Assembly: GCA_017852335.1 (NCBI GenBank)
Contig: JAFMLG010000003.1
Span: forward strand, 1 to 64,000
DNA length: 64,000 nucleotides
Origin: Actinomycetota bacterium
GTDB taxonomy: Bacteria; Actinomycetota; Nitriliruptoria; Nitriliruptorales; Nitriliruptoraceae
Direction: 5' to 3'
Shown here: positions 49,925-51,302 of the stretch, in pieces
Numbering within the stretch: position 1 is the first letter of the stretch
Layout: every line of letters starts with the position of its first letter
Program-made: the position numbers and the translations under genes
The notes under the pieces: model-generated
What the model saw: the letters and a program-made list of their open reading frames with translations, nothing else
Database searches by the model: none
What the model was told of the DNA's origin: nothing

Positions 49925-50018
49925 GGGTCGGGGATCTCGGCTCGGGCCGGGCGCGCGCGTGCGCGCGGGACGGCGGACGGACATGGGGGTGGCGCGCCCG
50001 AACGGACGGCCGGTCGGG

Positions 50019-50069
50019 AGCCTAGCGCCGCGGGCCCGCCCCCGACGAGCGGATCCCGGCCGGTAGCGT
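50019..50069. promoter_or_regulatory. Divergent candidate -10 boxes for rpsA and the Ig-like gene
   Basis: Minus-strand TAGGCT (50019-50024) lies about 94 nt before the rpsA ATG. Plus-strand TAGCGT (50064-50069) lies 32 nt before GTG 50102. The rest of 49925-50101, the longest gene-free stretch, holds nothing else recognisable. Confidence 0.45.
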
Positions 50070-50101
50070 CCCGCCCGGTCGGCGGCGGGAACGGGGCGGA
50101 C

Positions 50102-50521
50102 GTGGCGCGGGACGGCTGGCTCCGACGGGCCCGGCGGCGCCGCGTCGGTCCGGACGGCGTCGTGCCGCTGCACGACTCGCTGCCGAAGACGGGGCTGCTC
50201 GCCGAACCGGTCCGGGTGGCGGCCCTCGCGCACGCCGGGACCGAGCGGCTCGGGGACGGGTCGCACCGGGTCGTGTTCACGGTCGAGGTCCGAGCGGCCG
50301 ACGACGCCCGATGCCCCGGGATCGCCGTCGAGGCCCACGTGGCCGGCCCGGAGCGGGCTCGGACGGTCGCGGGGGCGACGGACCTGTTCGGCCGCATCCG
50401 GTTCCGCATGGCCGGCCCGCCGGGGACCTACACCTGCACGGTCACCGACGTGGCCGCGGGCGGGCTGGTCTGGGACCGCGACGCCGGTCCGCTGGTGGCG
50501 ACGGTCGACGTCGACGCGTGA
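50102..50521 (+). CDS. Small Ig-like beta-sandwich protein, unknown function
   Basis: 139 residues from GTG 50102. After a basic N-terminus, residues about 33-137 read as alternating strands (VVFTVEVRAADD, IAVEAHV, IRFRMAGPPGTYTCTVTDV) like a bacterial Ig-like/carboxypeptidase-regulatory fold, with two Cys that could pair. There is no signal peptide or membrane helix. It is followed after 13 nt by the DUF3152 gene on the same strand, so the two are probably one transcript. No family name can be given. Confidence 0.62.
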   Translation: MARDGWLRRARRRRVGPDGVVPLHDSLPKTGLLAEPVRVAALAHAGTERLGDGSHRVVFTVEVRAADDARCPGIAVEAHVAGPERARTVAGATDLFGRIRFRMAGPPGTYTCTVTDVAAGGLVWDRDAGPLVATVDVDA

Positions 50522-50534
50522 CGGACCGGTCCTG

Positions 50535-51302
50535 ATGCGCCGGACCGCCGCCCTCGGCGTCGCGGCCGTCGTCGCGGCCGCGGCCCCGGTCCTCACCGCG
50601 ACGGCCCCGGCGGACCCCGGCGCGACACCTCCCGTGGTGACGACGCCGGCCCCGGTCCCCGGCCCGCCGGCGGAGGCCGACACCGCGCGTCCGGCGACGG
50701 CGGCGCCGGGTCCCTCCGCCGCCACCGCCGACCCCGACGTCGGCGCGGGCGCGGACGCGGACGCGGACACCGGGGCGCCACCGCACGGGCGCAGCCGAGA
50801 GGGGTTCCTGGTCGCGGCCGGGGGCGCCGCGGCCGGACGCGGACCGCTGCTCCGCTACACGGTCGAGGTCGACCCGGCCACCGGGGCCGACCCCGCCGCC
50901 GTCGCGGCCGTCGCGGAGACGGCGCTCGGCGACGTCCGGTCCTGGGGCCGGCAGCGACGCCTGGTCCGCGTCGACGACCCGGACGCGGCGGACGCCCGGC
51001 TCGTCCTCGCCCCGCCCGACGTCGTCGACGCCCTCTGCGCCGAGGCGGGCCTCGACACCGCCGGCGTGTACAGCTGCTGGAACGGTCGGATCGTCGCCCT
51101 GAACGCGTGGCGGTGGGCGACGGGGGCGTACGGGTTCCCGGACGTCGCGACCTACCGCCTCTACCTCGTCAACCACGAGGTCGGGCACGTCCTCGGGTAC
51201 GGGCACGTCGCCTGCCCGGCACCGGGGGCGACGGCCCCTCTGATGATGCAGCAGTCGAAGGGGCTCGACGGCTGCACGGCGAACGGGTGGCCCCACCCCT
51301 GA
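50535..51302 (+). CDS. DUF3152 secreted metzincin-like metalloprotease
   Basis: 255 residues. A signal peptide-like start (about 1-25) is followed by a long Ala/Pro/Asp linker (to about 85) and a DUF3152 domain. The domain holds HEVGHVLGYGH at 214-224, the extended zinc motif HExxHxxGxxH of metzincins, and MM at 237-238 as a candidate Met-turn. C168, C181, C227 and C247 could form two disulfides. The substrate is unknown. Members are widespread in actinobacteria, but I know of no characterised one. Confidence 0.88.
   Translation: MRRTAALGVAAVVAAAAPVLTATAPADPGATPPVVTTPAPVPGPPAEADTARPATAAPGPSAATADPDVGAGADADADTGAPPHGRSREGFLVAAGGAAAGRGPLLRYTVEVDPATGADPAAVAAVAETALGDVRSWGRQRRLVRVDDPDAADARLVLAPPDVVDALCAEAGLDTAGVYSCWNGRIVALNAWRWATGAYGFPDVATYRLYLVNHEVGHVLGYGHVACPAPGATAPLMMQQSKGLDGCTANGWPHP

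Follow-up and report, generated by a model that had tools for sequence, protein, structure and literature searches.

Two genes lie close together on the same strand in the window (the whole stretch of 64,000 nucleotides analysed here, from a Nitriliruptorales bacterium): a member of the DUF3152 family and, upstream of it, a small Ig-like gene that we call IgL. Do they form a functional pair? A sequence-only reading of this DNA had proposed that DUF3152 is a metzincin and that its neighbour is a binding partner or an immunity protein. The metzincin half of this proposal stands after our analysis, while the partner or immunity half does not. We consider it likely that an exported DUF3152 metzincin is found here next to a gene from a separate neighbourhood, and that the apparent pair arose through a move of DUF3152 and the loss of tag. 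Both open reading frames were confirmed as proposed, with the small Ig-like gene on the same strand (Table 1) and only 13 nt (50522-50534) between the two.

Table 1. Positions of the two genes and of their features in the window
Feature	Positions	Strand	Remarks
IgL, 139 aa, single Ig-like (Big_1-like) domain, Arg-rich N-terminus, no signal peptide seen	50102..50521	+	GTG start
Ig-like beta-sandwich domain of IgL, residues 34-139	50201..50518	+	AF2 model; intimin D00-D0 match
Predicted secreted metzincin of the DUF3152 family, 255 aa	50535..51302	+	ATG start; Pfam PF11350 102.1 bits
Signal-peptide-like N-terminus, residues 1-26	50535..50612	+	Hydropathy 2.33 at residues 6-20; inferred
Ala/Pro/Thr/Gly/Asp/Glu-rich linker, residues 27-89	50613..50801	+	A/P/T/G/D/E = 84% of residues 27-88
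Metzincin catalytic domain (model), residues 90-255	50802..51299	+	AF2 pLDDT 97.6, pTM 0.92; karilysin Z 11.1
Zinc-binding motif HEVGHVLGYGH, residues 214-224 (H214, E215, H218, H224)	51174..51206	+	Sequence and family conservation
Met-turn candidate LMMQQ, residues 236-240	51240..51254	+	M237 invariant in 46-member alignment

The downstream gene is a new member of DUF3152, which is itself a known family (PF11350; score 102.1 bits, Pfam cut-off 25.1 bits, E = 4.2e-29). We found the family in 53 of the 150 genomes in the set of relatives (own genome counted) and in 90 of 396 genomes sampled across the phylum Actinomycetota; among 14 control genomes it is carried by C. glutamicum. Several features seen in the sequence-only reading were recovered, namely a signal-peptide-like start (peak hydropathy 2.33 in a 15-residue window), the full HExxHxxGxxH motif, a plausible Met-turn and paired cysteines (residues 168, 181, 227 and 247). 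The hydrophobic N-terminus and the low-complexity linker behind it both agree with export, and secretion of the protein is plausible on these grounds.

The motif residues are strongly retained. In an alignment of 46 relatives found by Pfam, H125, E126, H129 and H135, which correspond to H214, E215, H218 and H224 of the window protein, are all invariant, as are M148 (M237 in the window) and three of the window's four Cys, indicating that the motif did not arise by chance. The statement on HE conservation rests on this Pfam-found set and not on the 80 loci from which 52 sequences were taken, together with that of the window, for the AlphaFold2 input alignment (53 sequences), as those loci had been found by a pattern already containing NHE. 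When a profile of the 46 homologues was compared with PDB sequences, human MMP-8 was matched at E = 2.3e-4, along with other MMPs, and the alignment with MMP-8 runs through the HExxHxxGxxH helix. Moreover, Pfam scans of the 53 members taken singly (E <= 1) gave matches to Peptidase_M10 in 41 (best 1.7e-5), to Reprolysin_3 in 43 and to Reprolysin_5 in 42.

The predicted structure points in the same direction. AlphaFold2 modelled residues 90-255 as a metzincin-like fold (pLDDT 97.6, pTM 0.92), and the first Foldseek matches of this model are karilysin and MMPs. The best of them, karilysin, has E = 1.4e-3 and a TM-score of 0.54; since no Foldseek match was obtained at E <= 0.001, the likeness to known metzincins seems to be distant. 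With VIA-align, karilysin (2xs4_A) is again at the top (Z = 11.1, rmsd 3.2 A, 129 residues aligned), level with MMP-11 (Z = 10.4, rmsd 3.4 A, 128 aligned) and snapalysin (1kuh; Z = 10.3, rmsd 2.6 A, 111 aligned). The best 50 rows (Z 9.5-11.1) consist of karilysin, MMPs, snapalysin and one snake-venom reprolysin, all of them metzincin peptidases. Judged from sequence and model together, the window protein possesses the HExxHxxGxx(H/D) motif, a Met-turn downstream of it as called from sequence, and the predicted fold of metzincins. The metzincin claim is hence borne out by the sequence profile, the predicted fold and the near-universal retention of the zinc motif. Our search of the open-licence literature found no text that places DUF3152 among the metzincins; database annotation, for example a Pfam clan, may already do so. 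What the present analysis itself provides is the family membership of the gene, the fold as a model, the conservation of the motif, the neighbourhood and the absence of co-occurrence described below.

It appears quite unlikely that DUF3152 has the fold of a metzincin without being an endopeptidase, acting instead as a zinc-binding scaffold or as a hydrolase of a non-protein substrate. Such a role would be in line with the lack of enzymology in the literature passages available on DUF3152, PF11350 and Rv3207c, and with a weak cross-match to the endoribonuclease YbeY in 6 of the 53 members; against it, the members sampled across the phylum retain the catalytic Glu and the His, unlike typical pseudoenzymes, and the best 50 fold matches are peptidases throughout. 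We favour the reading that DUF3152 proteins are zinc endopeptidases of the metzincin type, forming a family found in Actinomycetota. In such an enzyme the three His (H214, H218 and H224) would bind one zinc ion, the motif Glu (E215) would serve as the base that activates water for proteolysis, and the Met-turn (PVMxQQ; M237) would form the floor of the active site. Probably exported by a signal peptide and carried on a disordered linker, the protein would trim extracytoplasmic proteins in this Nitriliruptorales bacterium.

Its position within the metzincins was considered against two known groups. The matrixins (M10), represented by karilysin and MMP-8, agree in fold (2xs4_A, Z = 11.1) and in profile (MMP-8, E = 2.3e-4), but the window protein reaches only 11.4-12.5 bits against the Peptidase_M10 cut-off of 24. 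A cysteine-switch prodomain is a feature of M10 matrixins, whereas the window protein has no Cys before residue 168 that could be available for such a switch, and conserved Cys occur within its catalytic domain. With the Pfam cut-off missed and no Cys ahead of the catalytic domain, DUF3152 was rejected as a matrixin proper. Snapalysin (M7) is a small Streptomyces metzincin with similar agreement in fold (1kuh; Z = 10.3, rmsd 2.6 A over 111 residues). Its third zinc ligand is Asp, whereas the corresponding position in DUF3152 is His.

The zinc motif was also surveyed in 138 distinct segments, found by our own profile in loci fetched from the searches of relatives and of the phylum. The sequence-only reading would have been in difficulty if the zinc His were lost in most members, and this is not so: HE..H is present in 137 of the 138, the sole exception being the first piece of locus L077, where the gene is broken across two frames. 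A Met-turn-like match is found in 135. The third His lies at +10 in 120 segments, while 14 have it solely at +11 and another 2 at +13; for locus L072 the motif as printed is a regular-expression mis-hit at an upstream HEPGH, the true one being HEVGHGLGHGH. The two +13 cases, loci L070 and L075, are divergent DUF3152 sequences (HEAGHFLxFDQRSH).

Ten of the 14 segments with His at +11 only come from family f29 and four from elsewhere (L245, L246, L249 and L262). Within f29 (L002-L004 and L189-L205) all 20 loci have His at +11, eight of them also at +10, and the Cys after the third His is likewise displaced by one. Mycobacterium tuberculosis Rv3207c is given as DUF3152 in PMC3726780, and is described there and in PMC4413515 as a conserved or hypothetical protein. 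PMC8841753 prints an Rv3207c peptide that is the PVMMQQT Met-turn segment, and this peptide resembles the Met-turn segment of f29. The f29 clade, resembling Rv3207c in this printed peptide, probably uses HExxHxxGxxxH, as its sequences suggest, whereas the window protein has its third His at +10 (HExxHxxGxxH).

A gene for a ThiF and rhodanese (MoeZ-like) protein was observed in the fetched flank of 26 of 102 DUF3152 loci (L102-L181, L062-L081, L093 and L098), within 300 bp in 21; the MoeZ-like identity was checked by Pfam for one representative. As a clue to the substrate of DUF3152 this neighbourhood was dropped, being too generic for function.

The upstream protein is Ig-like, as had been proposed; this is supported by Big_1 matches among its orthologues and by an Ig-like sandwich in its model. 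The window sequence taken alone matches only Big_1 (PF02369) in Pfam, at 13.7 bits (E = 0.068) and below the cut-off of 34.9, and 23 of 29 orthologues match the same family at E <= 1 (best 9.6e-8). The AlphaFold2 model, built from two sequences, has a mean pLDDT of 76.7 and a confident core, with runs of three or more residues below pLDDT 50 confined to residues 1-28, and it aligns with intimin D00-D0 over 97 residues (Z = 9.5, rmsd 3.2 A). When PDB sequences were searched with the IgL profile, no match rose above chance level (best E = 0.62). The GTG start coincides with the start position in congeners.

Big_1 domains normally sit in surface proteins. IgL shares the likeness to the intimin/invasin type just described but differs in being a lone domain with no export signal seen and with one invariant Cys. 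No hydrophobic segment was found within the domains of 29 orthologues (19-residue hydropathy <= 1.17). Most of these were N-terminally trimmed in that test, which was repeated with the upstream residues restored; the N-terminal stretches do not exceed 0.79 in the 29 measurable of 30 loci, one being too short. The earlier description of the protein as non-secreted agrees with this result for the window and its orthologues. Both the lack of a hydrophobic segment and the single invariant Cys fit a cytosolic protein, and IgL is probably cytosolic, as far as these sequence properties tell. An LPKTG at residues 27-31 was considered as a sortase signal and rejected, being N-terminal with no hydrophobic stretch after it. 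The orthologues (L033-L061) share a conserved N-terminal P-K/R-x-G-[LFI] motif, reading x-P-K/R-x-G with variable x at the LPKTG site.

By profile, IgL occurs in 33 of the 66 genomes of the class, exclusively in families f1 (32 of 35) and f2 (1 of 1). Two weak single-sequence matches lie beyond the order, in G060 (E = 1.3e-4, with an internal stop) and G094 (E = 3.1e-4). They were left out of the counts, G060 being blank by profile and G094 lying outside the profile search.

The gene order in the window is uvrB(-), coaE(-), rpsA(-), IgL(+), DUF3152(+) and polA(-), where uvrB, coaE, rpsA and polA were identified by Pfam (UvrB, CoaE, S1 domains and DNA_pol_A). Of 30 IgL loci, 16 have tag (DNA-3-methyladenine glycosylase I) as the next gene upstream and 6 more have it 600-1,200 bp away on that side, and rpsA and polA are found in the stretch in 20 and 12, respectively; these neighbour counts are lower bounds, many flanks being 1.5 kb long or cut by contig ends. 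IgL probably belongs to an order-specific rpsA/tag/IgL/polA neighbourhood that is unrelated to DUF3152. Eight of the 30 loci showed no tag, and the notion of tag as an obligate companion of IgL is hence unsupported. In all three congeners tag stands between rpsA and IgL. No match to tag was found in the window genome (1.7 Mb, 82 contigs, 97% complete), and its usual slot, the rpsA-IgL gap at 49925-50101, is empty; the missing gene could sit in an assembly gap.

The proposed pairing of protease and binding partner or immunity protein finds no support in the distribution of the two genes. Within families f1 and f2 (36 genomes, own genome counted) both are present in 20, DUF3152 only in 1, IgL only in 13 and neither in 2 (Fisher p = 0.56), and across the class (66 genomes) the corresponding numbers are 20, 21, 13 and 12 (p = 1.0). 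For instance, G010, a single contig that is 96% complete, has IgL and no match to DUF3152. The two genes adjoin in 4 of the 30 IgL loci; these come from the four genomes of the window's genus, and DUF3152 is in none of the 26 IgL flanks outside it. Another 16 genomes, all from other genera, carry both genes, but there the two are separated by about 130 kb or more or sit on different contigs; in fragmented genomes different contigs do not strictly exclude closeness. With no association between the two genes, adjacency confined to one genus, IgL in shared rpsA/tag/polA surroundings and no export signal seen on it, we rejected the pair as a general explanation, and IgL is probably not the partner of DUF3152.

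A narrower version, in which IgL became an inhibitor, chaperone or immunity protein of DUF3152 within this genus only, after DUF3152 had moved there, seems very unlikely. The same-strand adjacency in all four genomes, with 13 nt between the genes in the window and a start/stop overlap or near-overlap in the congeners, is what such a unit would show, and similar enzymes do have inhibitor complexes (karilysin-potempin A, 8b2q; snapalysin-sermetstatin, 4hx3). However, IgL is found across the order and is retained in 13 genomes that give no match to DUF3152, no export signal is seen on it, its commonest upstream neighbour is tag, and the small genomes of 1.7 Mb lessen the meaning of tight spacing.

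The genus's DUF3152 clusters with family copies that occupy other loci in other genera, with moderate support (90/88). The simplest history is probably a move of DUF3152 beside IgL and a loss of tag. A resident DUF3152 gene would have moved 3' of IgL in this genus, IgL probably having occupied the site for longer, and tag would then have disappeared from the window's lineage, so that the two remaining genes resemble a pair. IgL itself probably works in the cytosol, with tag or polA as the neighbours of first interest. A more specific proposal, rather unlikely as a whole, is that IgL is an order-specific cytosolic family of stand-alone Ig-like proteins serving base-excision repair (tag, polA), and that DUF3152 is a separate unnamed metzincin family across Actinomycetota, with the third zinc His shifted (HExxHxxGxxxH) in the mycobacterial clade. 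If a repair role were true, it would put Big_1-type domains in an unexpected place. The judgement that IgL is probably no partner of DUF3152 avoids a false annotation as protease and immunity protein, and the metzincin class turns a widespread unknown family into a testable protease question.
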